Source: a bacterium
GTDB lineage: Bacteria; NPL-UPA2; JAGMAN01
Length of the DNA: 10,760 nucleotides
NCBI GenBank assembly: GCA_023130215.1
Contig: JAGMAN010000055.1
Span: 1 to 10,760 of the forward strand
Reading direction: 5' to 3'
Below, piece after piece: positions 2,095 through 5,643 of this stretch. Numbering within the stretch: the stretch's first letter is position 1; each line of letters begins with the position of its first letter. Under the pieces are notes generated by a model. That model saw only the letters and a list, made by a program, of their open reading frames with translations. It was not told the origin of the DNA and searched no databases. The translations under genes were made by a program, and so were the position numbers.

Positions 2095-3210
2095 CTAAAT
2101 TTGAAAATGAAAGTAGATGACGTCTCCATCCAGCACCGCGTAATTCTTCCCCTCTGTTCTAACTAAACCTTTCTCCCTCGCCACGGCGAGCGAGCCCTGC
2201 TCATTTAAATCCTCAAAGGGAATGACTTCAGCCCGGATGAAGCCAGTCTTCATATCCGAATGGACCTTGCCTGCTACCTCCGGCGCTTTCGTCCCTCGGA
2301 CTACGGTCCAGGCTCTCACTTTGCCCTCAACTACCGTATAGAAAGTGATTAAACCTAATAATGAATAACAGGCCTGAATTAATTTAGTGAGCCCAACCTG
2401 GGAAATGCCCATCTCTCGCCTAAATTCCTCGGCCTCCTCCTCTCCCAACTCGGCCATCTCCGCCTCTAACTTGGCCGGAACGGTCATTACCCCTGCCCCT
2501 TCCCTGGCAGCTACCTCCATAACCTTCCTCAGGTAAGGATGCCCAGGAGTGCACAGCATATCCTCCCCCACATTGGCTAAGTAAATAACCGGCTTTGAGG
2601 TTAAGAGACCAAGGCCCTTTATTGAATGGGATTCGGCTGCGTTCATGCTAAGGGAACGAACTGGTTTACCCTCACCGAGCCATGATTTAATCTTGGTGAG
2701 TAATCCTCTTTCCTCCTTCACCTTCGCTTGCAGCACTCTTACGTGTTCCCCACTTCTGGCCAACTTCTCCACCTTCTCCAAGCGCCGCTCCACCAACTCT
2801 AAATCGGCAAGAGCTAATTCTAAATTAACCATCTCAATATCCCGCTCAGGGTTAATGTCTGGCTCAATATGAGATACCCTTCCATCCTGGAAGCAGCGAA
2901 CTACATGCACCATAGCTTCCACTTCCCGAACATGGGATAGGAATTGGTTGCCCAATCCTTCTCCCTTGCTTGCTCCTTTAATCAGGCCGGCGATGTCCAG
3001 AAACTTAATGGTAGTGGGAGTTATATCTTCTGAGCCAACTATAGCTCCTAATCCTTTCAATCTCTCGTCGGGAACGGTCACCACGCCAACATTTGGCTCA
3101 ATAGTGCAGAAAGGATAGTCAGAAACTGAGGCTCCAGCCCGGGCAAGAGCATTGAATGCCATGGATTTTCCTACATTGGGAAGACCAATAATTCCGCAAC
3201 TTAAACCCAA
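2095..3210 (-). CDS. ychF: Redox-regulated ATPase YchF (OLA1 family, Obg-like)
   Basis: YchF is a ribosome-associated TRAFAC-class P-loop NTPase that prefers ATP to GTP and modulates translation and stress responses. From the TTG at 3210 the protein is 371 residues and opens MGLSCGIIGLPNVGKS, as family members do. Motifs: P-loop G9-L-P-N-V-G-K-S16; L-D-I-A-G-L (71-76) then I-K-G-A-S-K-G-E-G-L-G-N-Q-F; and N-V-G-E (213-216) in place of the GTPase NKxD, consistent with ATP use. A helical coiled-coil insert spans about 128-180, and the C-terminal TGS domain about 288-371 (V-R-A-W-T, A-G-K-V-H-S-D). The residue after K-S in the P-loop is Met rather than the usual Thr. GTG starts at 3237 and 3222 are also open, but would add residues coded by a palindromic repeat. 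The TTG has GGTGAGGG five bases upstream. Confidence 0.95.
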   Translation of the reverse strand: MGLSCGIIGLPNVGKSMAFNALARAGASVSDYPFCTIEPNVGVVTVPDERLKGLGAIVGSEDITPTTIKFLDIAGLIKGASKGEGLGNQFLSHVREVEAMVHVVRCFQDGRVSHIEPDINPERDIEMVNLELALADLELVERRLEKVEKLARSGEHVRVLQAKVKEERGLLTKIKSWLGEGKPVRSLSMNAAESHSIKGLGLLTSKPVIYLANVGEDMLCTPGHPYLRKVMEVAAREGAGVMTVPAKLEAEMAELGEEEAEEFRREMGISQVGLTKLIQACYSLLGLITFYTVVEGKVRAWTVVRGTKAPEVAGKVHSDMKTGFIRAEVIPFEDLNEQGSLAVAREKGLVRTEGKNYAVLDGDVIYFHFQI

Positions 3211-3215
3211 ATTAT

Positions 3216-3277
3216 CCCTCACCTTACTCCCCCTCACCCTTCCCTCTCTCCACGGGGAAAGGACTTAAGGTGGGGAG
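3216..3277. repeat. Imperfect palindromic C/T-rich repeat at the 5' end of ychF
   Basis: The plus strand reads CCCTCACCTTA (3216-3226), then a C/T-rich run with CTCCCC and TCACCCTT, then an AC-GGGG-AAAGG centre, then TTAAGGTGGGGAG (3265-3277). The outer arms pair with one or two mismatches. Short C/T-rich palindromes of the CCCTCACCCT...AGGGTGAGGG type are common interspersed repeats in environmental bacterial genomes; placing this one in that group is inference. It lies in the predicted ychF leader and contains the two GTG codons that could extend ychF. Confidence 0.5.
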
Positions 3278-3285
3278 TTGGAAAA

Positions 3286-3314
3286 ACTATACTATATCTA
3301 CCGATAGAAATCAA
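3286..3314 (-). promoter_or_regulatory. Probable ychF promoter
   Basis: On the minus strand TTGATT (3314-3309) and TATAGT (3291-3286) are 17 bases apart. A second TATAGT overlaps at 3296-3291 but has only a 12-base spacer, so the downstream one is preferred. The predicted start near 3279 gives a leader of about 70 bases that includes the palindromic repeat. Confidence 0.6.
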
Positions 3315-3350
3315 TGGAAAAATGGGATGTTCATGGAAATGGGATGTTCA
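3315..3350. repeat. Two tandem copies of TGGAAATGGGATGTTCA
   Basis: TGGAAAAATGGGATGTTCA (3315-3333) is followed at once by TGGAAATGGGATGTTCA (3334-3350). The copies are identical apart from two extra A residues in the first. The pair lies just upstream of the ychF promoter and just past the end of the 225-residue gene. Repeated short sites like this occur at the ends of some insertion sequences as transposase-binding sites, but no transposase or second end is in the window, so its nature is unknown. Confidence 0.75.
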
Positions 3351-3356
3351 GTGTTA

Positions 3357-3379
3357 AAAATATTCATTTAAAATATTTT
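3357..3379 (-). terminator. Weak AT-only hairpin overlapping the stop of the 225-residue gene
   Basis: On the minus strand AAAATATT (3379-3372), a seven-base loop, and AATATTTT (3364-3357) form a perfect 8-bp inverted repeat followed by further T residues. It could act as a terminator for the 3364-4041 gene. It has no G-C pairs and overlaps the coding end, so it may only reflect AT richness. Confidence 0.25.
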
Positions 3380-4041
3380 AATACCTTACGCTTTTTGTTT
3401 TTTGTTGTGATTTTGGCTATTATATTTGATTTATCTTTTCCTTTATTTAAGGTTTTTAAAATAGCTAATGCATGATTCGCGCGCTTAAAAGTAGTGGCTG
3501 AATCGATTTCACTACACCATGTTTCATCAGAAACATTGAAATAATGTTGCCATTTAGTTTTGGATGCAAAATTAGCCACTATAATATATCTTATTGGATC
3601 TTGGGAATCTTTCAGTCTTATATCTAATTCCTTTTTAGCTTTTTTTATTTTCGCTTCAGAAAAACCATGAAATGTCATATCAAATAGGCAATGCGAGACA
3701 ATTTCTTCTTTTGCATAATTGTTTAATATCTCTCCTGACAATGAAGATCCAAGCCATTCTGACCAGGGAGTGAGGCTTAATGAAAATTTCTCCAATTCCC
3801 CATCTTCTCTTTTTGTTCCGTCAACTCCATATATATCATGAAATTGGTCGTCTCCTTTCAGGATGGGCTCTCCTTTATCGCAAAATAATTCCATTGTGGA
3901 AGTTGTTGGGGATTTGGCTCGTAATTTTTTGTATACGAATTCATATCCAATGATTGATTTTTCCTGGCTTGGATAATTGCGCAGGAAGACCTTACGTACT
4001 GTATCCCAATCTGAAGCTGTAATAATCTCTTTTAATTTCAT
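3364..4041 (-). CDS. Hypothetical protein, AT-rich accessory gene
   Basis: The 225-residue soluble protein has no signal peptide or membrane segment. The N-terminus (MKLKEIITASDWDTVRKVF, then R-N-Y-P-S-Q-E, G-Y-E-F-V-Y-K-K-L and S-P-T-T-S-T-M) recalls small uncharacterised proteins such as DUF6557, which pair a W-x2-V-x-K start with a Y-x-x-V-x-x-x-L helix. I hold this only as a weak resemblance. The middle has W-S-E-W-L-G (93-98) and the end is lysine-rich (T-K-N-K-K-R-K-V-L-K). It is visibly more AT-rich than all neighbours and has no clear Shine-Dalgarno (TTAGAAAAAA before the ATG), both signs of a transferred gene. It starts about 15 bases after the recognisable intron remnant ends, so it either lies beyond the intron's deletion point or has inserted there. 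Confidence 0.72.
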   Translation of the reverse strand: MKLKEIITASDWDTVRKVFLRNYPSQEKSIIGYEFVYKKLRAKSPTTSTMELFCDKGEPILKGDDQFHDIYGVDGTKREDGELEKFSLSLTPWSEWLGSSLSGEILNNYAKEEIVSHCLFDMTFHGFSEAKIKKAKKELDIRLKDSQDPIRYIIVANFASKTKWQHYFNVSDETWCSEIDSATTFKRANHALAILKTLNKGKDKSNIIAKITTKNKKRKVLKYFK

Positions 4042-4055
4042 TTTTTTCTAATCGA

Positions 4056-4496
4056 CATAGGTAGGCTCTCACGGGAACCGTTCGGACCTTCAGCAAGGTG
4101 AGTCCTCCCCGCCTTTGCAGGGCTCGTATCCTCTGCCTACTATGTCCTCTGCTGACTTCTGCACGGCGTTCGGTCAGAATCTCTCCCAACCCAGTCCGCT
4201 TTTACTCAGACATCGTACAGACCTCCCGGGGTAAGATACATAGCCTTCCGTGCGTAAACGCCGGATTTATAAAGCACACCCCATTGCGGATGGAGAACTT
4301 CGTAGCCACGTGCCCACTCGTTCCGGGTGTACCACACCTCTTATCCGGTTCCTGTTCGTCGCCCCGCACTTTTGGATTGGACTTCCTCCAGACCCCGCCT
4401 CACGACGACGCCCCTGCCCTTTTCCTTACCTTCGGCTCCGCGTACACCTGGTGCGAGGACTTTCACCTCGCAAGCTATGTGCCATGCCTGGCACAC
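4056..4496 (-). mobile_element. Group II intron remnant: 5' RNA domains, truncated near the start of the intron-encoded protein
   Basis: On the minus strand the intron begins GTGTGCC (4496-4490), where TGTGCC pairs with GGCACA (4483-4478) around the AGGCAT loop. This is the classic group II 5' end (GUGYG). GCGAGGTGAAAGTCCTCGC follows, then the hallmark blocks CTTACCCCGGGAGGTCTG and CAGAAGTCAGCAGAGGACAT-AGTAGG, known from domain III/IV of bacterial introns such as that of Oceanobacillus iheyensis. A GGGGAGGAC stretch and TTGCTGAAGG follow, where the reverse-transcriptase reading frame would open. The similarity then stops at about 4056. No reverse transcriptase and no domain V or VI is present, so this copy cannot splice or move. 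The 3' boundary is approximate. Comparison with known introns is from memory. Confidence 0.85.
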
Positions 4497-4560
4497 ACGG
4501 CGGAGCTGAGTGACCATGGCACGAGCTTGCTTGCCTTAGCAAGCGAGTGACTGGTTAGGC
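4497..4560 (-). other. attC-like half-site interrupted by the group II intron remnant
   Basis: On the minus strand GCCTAAC (4560-4554) fits the integron R'' box (RYYYAAC). It starts five bases after the TGA of the 69-residue gene, as in a gene cassette. It is followed by a hairpin, GCTTGC (4544-4539) with GCAAGC (4530-4525), and a direct repeat of GTCACTC (4551-4545 and 4514-4508). The matching GTTRRRY box that should close the site is absent, because the intron begins at 4496. It is probably the left part of an attC site split by intron insertion and then by loss of the intron's 3' end. Confidence 0.55.
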
Positions 4561-4565
4561 ACCGT

Positions 4566-4775
4566 TCACACATATTCATACACGGGTGTTTCGATCACAC
4601 GCACAGGCTTCTCTTTCCCTCTGATCAGCTTCTGAATGTGCTCCACCGTTTCAGGAGCAAACAACTCCTCCCCGGTTTCCTTGCATACCCGTGCAGGAAC
4701 ATGCTCGATAATGTAGAAACTGCCTGCATGTTCCAGTGTGTAAATCACTTCAGTATCAAGCATGGTCTCTTTCAT
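4566..4775 (-). CDS. YgiT/MqsA-like antitoxin-type protein without the zinc-finger cysteines
   Basis: The 69-residue protein matches the C-terminal half of YgiT-type proteins, often the antitoxin partner of a small toxin. V-I-Y-T-L-E (9-14), I-I-E-H-V-P-A-R-V-C (22-31), G-E-E-L-F-A-P-E-T-V (35-44) and a closing V-I-E-T-P-V-Y-E-Y resemble the standard pattern of N-V-P-A-x-V-C-x-x-C-G-E-x-Y. The usual N-terminal CxxC is missing and the second CxxC is C-K-E-T, so only one cysteine remains and zinc binding is unlikely. Translation starts at ATG with GGGAGGT eight bases upstream, directly after the TGA of the DUF4258 gene. The pair is co-transcribed with a 16-base gap. Antitoxin function is inferred from this pairing; it could instead be an accessory regulator. 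Confidence 0.88.
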   Translation of the reverse strand: MKETMLDTEVIYTLEHAGSFYIIEHVPARVCKETGEELFAPETVEHIQKLIRGKEKPVRVIETPVYEYV

Positions 4776-4791
4776 AAAGGCCTACCTCCCT

Positions 4792-5109
4792 TCACCCCGT
4801 TTTCCTGACTCGGTAGTCGATCCAAAGATCCGGGTCAGGTTGGTAGAGCGTAATGATCTTGACCAAAGGACGGCTGGGATAGCTACACTGCACGTGCAAC
4901 GGATGTCCCGCTTTCGTAAACCCCAGGATCAGATAACTCGGCCCGTATTTGTCATCCGGGTAGTCCTCGATGACTTCGCTCTTGCCTATGATTGCCTCTT
5001 CAACTTCTGGAACGCTGATGCCGCGGATGATGCTCTGATCAACAGCATGCTTCGAAAATTCATACTGCCTCTGTCGAATCTTCCTCTTAATCCCATCAAG
5101 CATTTCCAT
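4792..5109 (-). CDS. DUF4258 family protein, probable toxin of a toxin-antitoxin pair
   Basis: The DUF4258 domain covers most of the 105 residues. Y16-x-F-S-K-H-A (to 22) is followed by I-I-R-G-I-S-V-P-E-V-E-E-A-I (27-40), E-V-I-E-D-Y-P-D-D (45-53), Y-G-P-S-Y-L-I-L-G (55-63), H-P-L-H-V-Q (69-74) and I-I-T-L-Y-Q-P-D-P-D-L-W at the end. The family is related to RelE/BrnT-like small toxins and is often encoded beside YgiT-like proteins, as here. The frequent H-A-x2-R motif is H-A-V-D-Q. The ATG at 5109 is preferred because a promoter -10 box ends six bases upstream and no Shine-Dalgarno is present. A TTG at 5115 and an ATG at 5103 are also in frame. Toxicity and an mRNA target are inferred from the family, not shown. 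Confidence 0.87.
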   Translation of the reverse strand: MEMLDGIKRKIRQRQYEFSKHAVDQSIIRGISVPEVEEAIIGKSEVIEDYPDDKYGPSYLILGFTKAGHPLHVQCSYPSRPLVKIITLYQPDPDLWIDYRVRKTG

Positions 5110-5115
5110 GGTCAA

Positions 5116-5144
5116 ATTCTATCAGATTAAACTCCCTTGGTCAA
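5116..5144 (-). promoter_or_regulatory. Promoter of the DUF4258/YgiT-like pair, positioned for leaderless mRNA
   Basis: On the minus strand TTGACC (5144-5139), 17 bases, then TAGAAT (5121-5116). The ATG at 5109 begins seven bases after the -10 box, where transcription would start. No ribosome binding site lies between. It starts 10 bases inside the cassette after the attC-like site, so the cassette would carry its own promoter. Confidence 0.7.
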
Positions 5145-5154
5145 CTTCCCATGT

Positions 5155-5210
5155 GCCTAACATTCAAGCTCACCTGCTGGCAATGAGCACCAGCGAATTG
5201 CCAGTTAGGT
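5155..5210. repeat. attC-like integron recombination site
   Basis: On the plus strand GCCTAAC (5155-5161) fits RYYYAAC and GTTAGGT (5204-5210) fits GTTRRRY; the two are complementary except at the outer base. Inside is a perfect 8-bp inverted repeat, CTGGCAAT (5177-5184) and ATTGCCAG (5197-5204), around a 12-base loop. ATTCAAGC follows the first box, as in many known attC sites. The 56-base length fits short attC elements. The site sits 11 bases after the stop of the 5222-5572 gene and just before the promoter of the next gene pair, as expected at a cassette junction. The internal arms are asymmetric (15 bases against none), so the match is good but not perfect. Confidence 0.68.
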
Positions 5211-5221
5211 GTTCGACGGGA

Positions 5222-5572
5222 TTACTTGGTTGTGCTCTTTTCCAATCTTTTTTGTTTCTTATTTATAGTGGCAAATGTAATAAACGATAGAAAAGACAAC
5301 TGACTTAGATGAGGCCACGAACTTAGCAGAAAAAACAAGAAGCATAAAGAAGCAAGGGAAACAAGAAATATCTTTTTCTCAGGCTTAATAGGAGACTTAA
5401 CCTTTGATGCATCAAATGGGATAAAAACCAAGTAAGATAGAAAGGACAAGAAAGACAAATATGATAATTGAGACAGATGCTGATAGGAATCACTACCCAG
5501 AAAGCCGAGAAAACCAAGAAAACCTATAAATCCAATAGCTCTCAGAAATCTACTATCATTTGCTCGTTTCAT
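5222..5572 (-). CDS. Low-complexity hydrophobic membrane protein of unknown function
   Basis: I do not recognise a characterised family. The 116 residues are rich in F, L, S and G. A G-F-L-G-F-L-G repeat spans 14-26, and L-S-Y-L-S-F-L-S-F-L-S-Y-L spans 36-48. A charged loop (54-67, with K-S-P-I-K-P-E-K-K) leads to a hydrophobic segment (68-86). A partial repeat H-L-S-Q-L-S-F-L-S-F (88-97) echoes H-L-S-Q-L-S-Y-L-S-F (32-41), and a basic tail (104-116) ends the protein. Three or four membrane segments are likely. A good Shine-Dalgarno (GGAGG, 5582-5578) five bases before the ATG and a strong promoter upstream argue that it is expressed. Its position directly before an attC-like site suggests a gene cassette. 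The repetitive composition leaves some chance that it is not a true protein gene. Confidence 0.6.
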   Translation of the reverse strand: MKRANDSRFLRAIGFIGFLGFLGFLGSDSYQHLSQLSYLSFLSFLSYLVFIPFDASKVKSPIKPEKKIFLVSLASLCFLFFLLSSWPHLSQLSFLSFITFATINKKQKRLEKSTTK

Positions 5573-5603
5573 TTATGCCTCCATTTTTCTATCCGTCGAA
5601 TAA

Positions 5604-5621
5604 TTAATAGACAAAGTTCAT
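5604..5621 (-). CDS. Possible five-codon leader ORF
   Basis: ATG-AAC-TTT-GTC-TAT-TAA encodes M-N-F-V-Y. A perfect AGGAGG (5637-5632) lies 10 bases upstream, almost at the predicted transcription start. It lies in the leader of the membrane-protein gene. It may be a short upstream peptide or only a ribosome standby site; the sequence alone cannot decide. Confidence 0.3.
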   Translation of the reverse strand: MNFVY

Positions 5622-5643
5622 GTTTGTATTTCCTCCTAGGGTA

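Follow-up and report, generated by a model that had tools for sequence, protein, structure and literature searches.

We analysed a window of 10,760 nucleotides, contig C88 of a 1.01-Mb draft genome (136 contigs, 90% complete), in which the region 5572-3364 is very probably the relic of an integron cassette array enclosed by two conserved chromosomal blocks, trp-pgsA-der on one side and ychF onward on the other. Between der (7381-5894) and ychF (3237-2095), the minus strand carries, in this order, a DUF3796-like ORF, an attC-derived site (site A), a DUF4258 gene, a YgiT-type gene, a second attC-derived site (site B), a group II intron fragment and a DUF6557 gene. The DUF4258 and YgiT-type genes thus form a two-gene unit bounded by two attC-derived sites, with an R box at each end. 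The initial annotation had described this stretch as an integron-like cassette carrying a toxin-antitoxin-type pair, and the genes and boxes that it named, together with a promoter-like sequence, are all present in the window.

The DUF3796-like ORF (5222-5572, minus strand, 116 aa; Pfam PF12676, 25.0 bits against a cut-off of 24.8) is a probable cassette gene before site A, and shares 60% identity over 67 aa with an ORF next to the array on contig C85; its GC content is 34%, against 49-50% for the housekeeping flanks. At the other end, behind the intron fragment, the DUF6557 gene (3364-4041, minus strand, 225 aa; PF20194, E-value 3e-32; GC 33%) is possibly a cassette or another acquired gene, and no attC was found behind it. 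The GC content of these two genes is 33-34%, whereas the housekeeping flanks and the DUF4258-YgiT pair are at 47-50%, which suggests separate origins.

The attC-derived sites of the window and of the genome

Since a strict scan for RYYYAAC/GTTRRRY pairs recovered few sites at integrase-bearing loci and was therefore too strict, we used a scan for L arms and a covariance model (R1) instead. The latter was built from 15 attC sites of other genomes, drawn from loci that encode an integron integrase and from DUF4258-family loci, and describes the R and L arms with two bulged bases. In this genome R1 recovered canonical attC sites at C135:2922-2994 (48.3 bits, E-value 5e-8) and C84:3808-3873 (39.2 bits, E-value 7e-6), with weaker matches on C60, C134 and C84 (20.2 bits on C84). 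The strong sites consist of an R' box, a 6-base spacer, an L' arm, a hairpin, an L'' arm with a bulged base, a 5-base spacer and an R'' box, while spacers have been lost from some other attC-derived sites of the genome. On contig C84 we also observed, at the end of a cassette gene, a 19-base GCCTAAC-AATGC-GTTAGGC palindrome (L011:4790-4808) in which the R boxes almost touch.

Site A (5155-5211, minus strand) is a truncated attC, with an R' box at 5155-5161, a spacer at 5162-5167, an L' arm at 5168-5184, a loop, and an L'' arm at 5197-5211. The R' box reads GTTAGGC on the minus strand (GCCTAAC at 5155-5161 on the plus strand), and box, spacer and L' arm together (GCCTAAC ATTCAA GCTCACC) resemble the C135 site. 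The L'' arm pairs with L' (CACCT..CTGGCAAT with ATTGCCAG..AGGTG; fold z -3.1). An attC-like site delimited by RYYYAAC and GTTRRRY boxes had been proposed at 5210-5155, and the R' box stands. This is the sole such box pair in the window; shuffled windows are expected to hold 0.087 such pairs each, which leaves room for a chance pair here. The site is not a canonical attC, though: its score with R1 is 9-11 bits (E-value 1.5-5.5 over 56 kb), and in the most stable fold of 5155-5210 the L arms are paired while the two boxes are unpaired with each other.

The other end of the site is clarified by a homologue in a genome of the same genus (G002, C39:6466-6540; 83% identity over 46 bases, E-value 4e-6), which continues CAGT GATTT GTTAGAT, a regular end with an R'' box, where the window continues TTCGACGGG. 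The genuine R'' box in G002, GTTAGAT, lies nine bases past the matching stretch, and this tail is absent from the window; site A has therefore most likely lost its R'' end. We rejected the GTTAGGT sequence at 5204-5210 as the R'' box, since it sits within the L'' arm and corresponds to GGTCGGG in the G002 homologue; its match to the box consensus is probably due to chance. Another candidate end at 5229-5235 (GTTGTGC, 11.4 bits) is unconvincing, being too distant from the L'' arm. A lesion on the R'' side is common to three attC-derived sites, namely L012:1780-1843 on C85, L020:2369-2425 on C135 and 5155-5211 in the window: the spacer, or the spacer and the outer L'' arm, is gone, which brings the L'' stem directly up against the R'' box or into other sequence.

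Site B (4498-4560, minus strand), the attC of the DUF4258-YgiT cassette, has retained its R'' box, the GCCTAAC at 4560-4554 that had been noted five bases past the YgiT stop codon and is indeed found there. The R' box is cut after GT (4499-4498): site B shares 87% identity with C84:3298-3359, whose sequence runs on as GTTGAGGC, while at the same point the window has GT|GTGTGCCAGGCATGG, where a group IIC intron begins. The second site postulated in the initial annotation thus keeps one box, the other having been opened by an intron fragment which that annotation had missed. Site B has no match with R1, and we designate it an attC because it carries an element that enters attC R' boxes in the same position and orientation as in plasmids. 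As neither window site is significant with the covariance model, by which both had been expected to be recognised, standard software for calling attC sites might miss the locus altogether.

The DUF4258-YgiT pair

Both genes of the pair were confirmed. The DUF4258 gene (4792-5109, minus strand; PF14076, E-value 5e-21) begins with ATG, a TTG at 5115 being a possible alternative, and encodes a probable BECR-fold toxin; the gene downstream (4566-4775, minus strand) encodes a YgiT-type protein of 69 aa with the N-domain of MqsA (TIGR03831, 26.6 bits, cut-off 20.2), a probable antitoxin, which retains a single Cys. The promoter proposed before the DUF4258 gene corresponds to TTGACC-17-TAGAAT at 5116-5144 on the minus strand (10 of 12 matches). 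The sequence is there, but such sites are no commoner than chance (six in the stretch against 4.7 in shuffles), making it weak evidence when taken alone. About seven bases separate the end of the -10-like hexamer from the ATG (5109-5116, minus strand), and with the hexamer so near the start codon the transcript may be leaderless.

The AF2 model of the DUF4258 protein (pLDDT 91) has its closest fold in the toxin of a Salmonella toxin-antitoxin complex (7vd7, Z 8.6), followed by MqsR bound to the N-domain of MqsA (3hi2, Z 8.2) and by BrnT (3u97, Z 6.8), with RelE-family toxins scoring lower. A search of PDB sequences with the DUF4258 profile returned weak matches to kelch proteins alone, which we took as chance, and PADLOC gave no result above noise. 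In a survey from 2025, DUF4258 is classed as a BECR-fold type II toxin of unknown function, and DUF4258-MqsA fusions are reported (PMC11980606). Since the DUF4258 protein is predicted to fold like MqsR and BrnT, and its adjacent partner is of the MqsA N-domain type, the pair is most likely a putative MqsRA-like toxin-antitoxin module. As in MqsR-MqsA, the toxin gene comes first, the toxin has a BECR-type fold (MqsR being the second-best fold match) and the antitoxin has a YgiT/MqsA N-domain; unlike in MqsR-MqsA, the toxin belongs to Pfam DUF4258, and the antitoxin, with its 69 aa and one Cys, is without the DNA-binding C-domain.

The two proteins could also be carried on a cassette and jointly do something other than act as toxin and antitoxin. 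No activity is on record for DUF4258, and the partner is short with one Cys kept. However, the gene order is fixed in all of the best 80 of 131 loci (see below), the model has an MqsR/BrnT-like fold, the YgiT family match is above its cut-off and fusions of the two domains are on record, and we regard such a different function as unlikely.

Relatives of the DUF4258 protein are encoded at 131 loci in named genomes of many phyla. We kept the best 80 of these, leaving out the records of the source genome, and in every one of the 80 the gene directly downstream encodes the YgiT partner. The expectation that the same gene pair would occur between attC sites elsewhere was borne out in unrelated phyla. 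In a member of Planctomycetales (L084), attC sites at 2842-2902 and 3495-3554 flank the pair genes (2916-3500), and in Thiohalocapsa halophila (L108) an attC (4545-4619) follows six bases after the pair, with a HicAB-like pair beyond it and then a pair 48-50% identical to that of the C135 cassette of our genome. Further attC sites lie near the pair at L051, L045, L070 and L038. Most of the best 80 homologous pairs have no attC nearby, which indicates that the pair is a widespread module taken up by integrons more than once, and that it is by itself no proof of a cassette.

A group IIC intron fragment in site B

Immediately next to site B lies the 5' part of a group IIC intron (4060-4497, minus strand), comprising D1-D3 and the start of D4, with RF02001 matching at 4409-4236 (120.3 bits) and RF01998 at 4194-4085 (49.8 bits). 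Its start, GTGTGCC, aligns to complete introns, and the D1-D4 core with a GTGYG start places it in group IIC. The window intron is a 3'-truncated fragment and not a complete element: a search for D5 and D6 found neither, and the assembled genome encodes no reverse transcriptase (RVT_1). We considered whether the DUF6557 gene might be the frame within D4 of a complete intron, and rejected this since D5 and D6 are absent behind it. No further copies of the intron were found among eight members of the phylum.

The closest relatives are plasmid-borne, with 75.6% identity over 83% of the query; they carry ltrA and lie in class 1 integrons. The reverse transcriptases encoded by the plasmid introns have the accessions WP_015063576.1 and WP_181377807.1. 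The intron of pEC732_IMP14, downstream of aadA1, and that of pPp47, downstream of aac(6')-Ib4, are 75.6% and 74.9% identical to the window copy over D1-D3. The pEC732_IMP14 intron reads CTCAAGCGT|GTGTGTCGGGC at its 5' junction and CCCGAT|TAGATGC at its 3' end, and joining GT to TAGATGC restores the aadA1 attC R' box; pPp47 has the same GT|T junction in the attC of aac(6')-Ib4. The point of insertion, GT|T of the R' box, and the orientation with the cassette are therefore identical in the window and in the plasmid integron introns, and the intron and the cassette genes lie on the same strand in the window, as in L198 and L199. The window copy differs from the plasmid introns in being truncated, without D5, D6 and ltrA, and in residing in an unrelated phylum of small genomes. 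Two other group IIC introns, from more distant genomes, are located behind ordinary terminator-like hairpins, not attC sites.

The described group IIC-attC introns (PMC7923331) share with the window copy their group, the attC site and the GT/T motif. However, they are inserted in the bottom strand, against the direction of the cassettes, while the window copy is in the top strand, and it is thus not a member of that class; one top-strand case, in Enterobacter cloacae, is mentioned among them (PMC7923331). We put forward, with some doubt, that the fragment may come from a group IIC lineage that targets top-strand attC R' boxes (GT|TRRRY, in cassette orientation) across distant phyla, and that such introns, by cutting R' boxes, may help to freeze or dismantle integron arrays. 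If real, this top-strand lineage would be the counterpart of the known bottom-strand IIC-attC lineage.

A probable array in decay

An IntI formerly present in the lineage, or encountered by it, would have captured the cassette, which would be hardly movable now. If the pair works like MqsR-MqsA, with DUF4258 as a probably RNA-cutting BECR-fold toxin and YgiT as its neutralising partner, addiction to it would help explain its survival beyond the integrase. A large Vibrio array is stabilised by toxin-antitoxin cassettes (PMC11551772), and the pair in the window may likewise once have stabilised its array.

No integron integrase (TIGR02249) over the cut-off was found in this genome as assembled, in agreement with the earlier observation that none was in view, nor in two congeners and two members of the order; the full-length tyrosine recombinases that we read in this genome (on C67 and C100) are of the XerC/XerD type. 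Within the phylum, G006 has a full IntI, and in G008 two attC-like matches enclose a short match to the C-terminal part of IntI (C13:64401-64592). The same place in relatives lacks the array: in G001 and G002 an epimerase gene comes after der, and in G001 and G004 the gene before ychF is hppA. The congeners do carry attC sites, but at other places, which argues that the array arrived here in this lineage. The main caveat is that the joint of der, array and ychF could be a misassembly.

In the terms of IntegronFinder (PMC9024848), a CALIN is a group of attC sites with no integron integrase. The window resembles one in its attC-derived sites, small cassettes, toxin-antitoxin-type cargo, agreement of cassette and attC directions and lack of an integrase in the 90%-complete draft; moreover, the cargo is a cassette elsewhere and the array is absent in relatives. 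It differs in that its sites are too damaged for covariance calling, and two or more recognised attC sites are found not at this locus but elsewhere in the genome, where the clear sites are confined to C84 and C135. By the strict covariance definition the window is thus not a CALIN, but the relic of one. The initial reading as a small attC cluster without integrase holds in so far as the genome has canonical attC sites, the pair occurs among attC sites in unrelated phyla, no integrase was found and congeners are without the array; it has to be modified in that both sites of the window are damaged and fall below covariance significance.

The damage also bears on whether the integron might still be live, its integrase lying in the tenth of the genome that is missing from the assembly, or acting in trans and its cassettes still moving. 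The genome is a draft, integrons are known to be split by draft assemblies (PMC9024848), G006 shows that a full IntI exists in the phylum, and some attC sites of the genome appear intact. Set against the lack of an IntI over the cut-off in this genome, two congeners and two members of its order, the damage to both sites of the window and the loss of spacers at other sites, this seems to us very unlikely. Conversely, the low covariance scores, the occurrence of most homologous pairs outside arrays (among the best 80 of 131 loci) and the probably fortuitous GTTAGGT box might mean that no integron was ever involved, and that a free mobile DUF4258-YgiT module lies between palindromic repeats which resemble attC by chance. 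Such a coincidence is very improbable, as the R boxes are tight against the genes, the intron in site B sits at the exact attC insertion point, sites A and B both have attC homologues, either in this genome or in a congener, and the pair is a cassette elsewhere (L084, L108). We therefore keep to the reading of the region as a relic of a cassette array. Through it, the distribution of integron cassettes, and of a type of intron associated with integrons, comes to include a small-genome uncultured lineage, and it illustrates array decay through a lost R'' end, lost spacers and an intron in an R' box, with toxin-antitoxin-type cassettes among the remnants.

The canonical attC sites on the other contigs accompany other toxin-antitoxin-type cassettes. 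On C85 (L012:101-1182), a DUF3796-like ORF is followed by a gene for RlaP, an RNA repair protein of the polymerase-beta type, and by a PemK/MazF toxin with a small partner, and this cluster adjoins a damaged attC at the contig end. On C135, a two-gene cassette encoding proteins of 73 and 76 aa (L020:2420-2641 and 2653-2883, minus strand) lies between attC-like sites, with its 48-50% identical counterpart in the integron array of Thiohalocapsa halophila at L108:5172-5417 and 5410-5643 (plus strand). The same two-gene cassettes, this one and DUF4258-YgiT, are thus present in arrays of different phyla. The 73/76-aa pair has no match in Pfam or NCBIfam, and is a candidate for an undescribed toxin-antitoxin-type pair.
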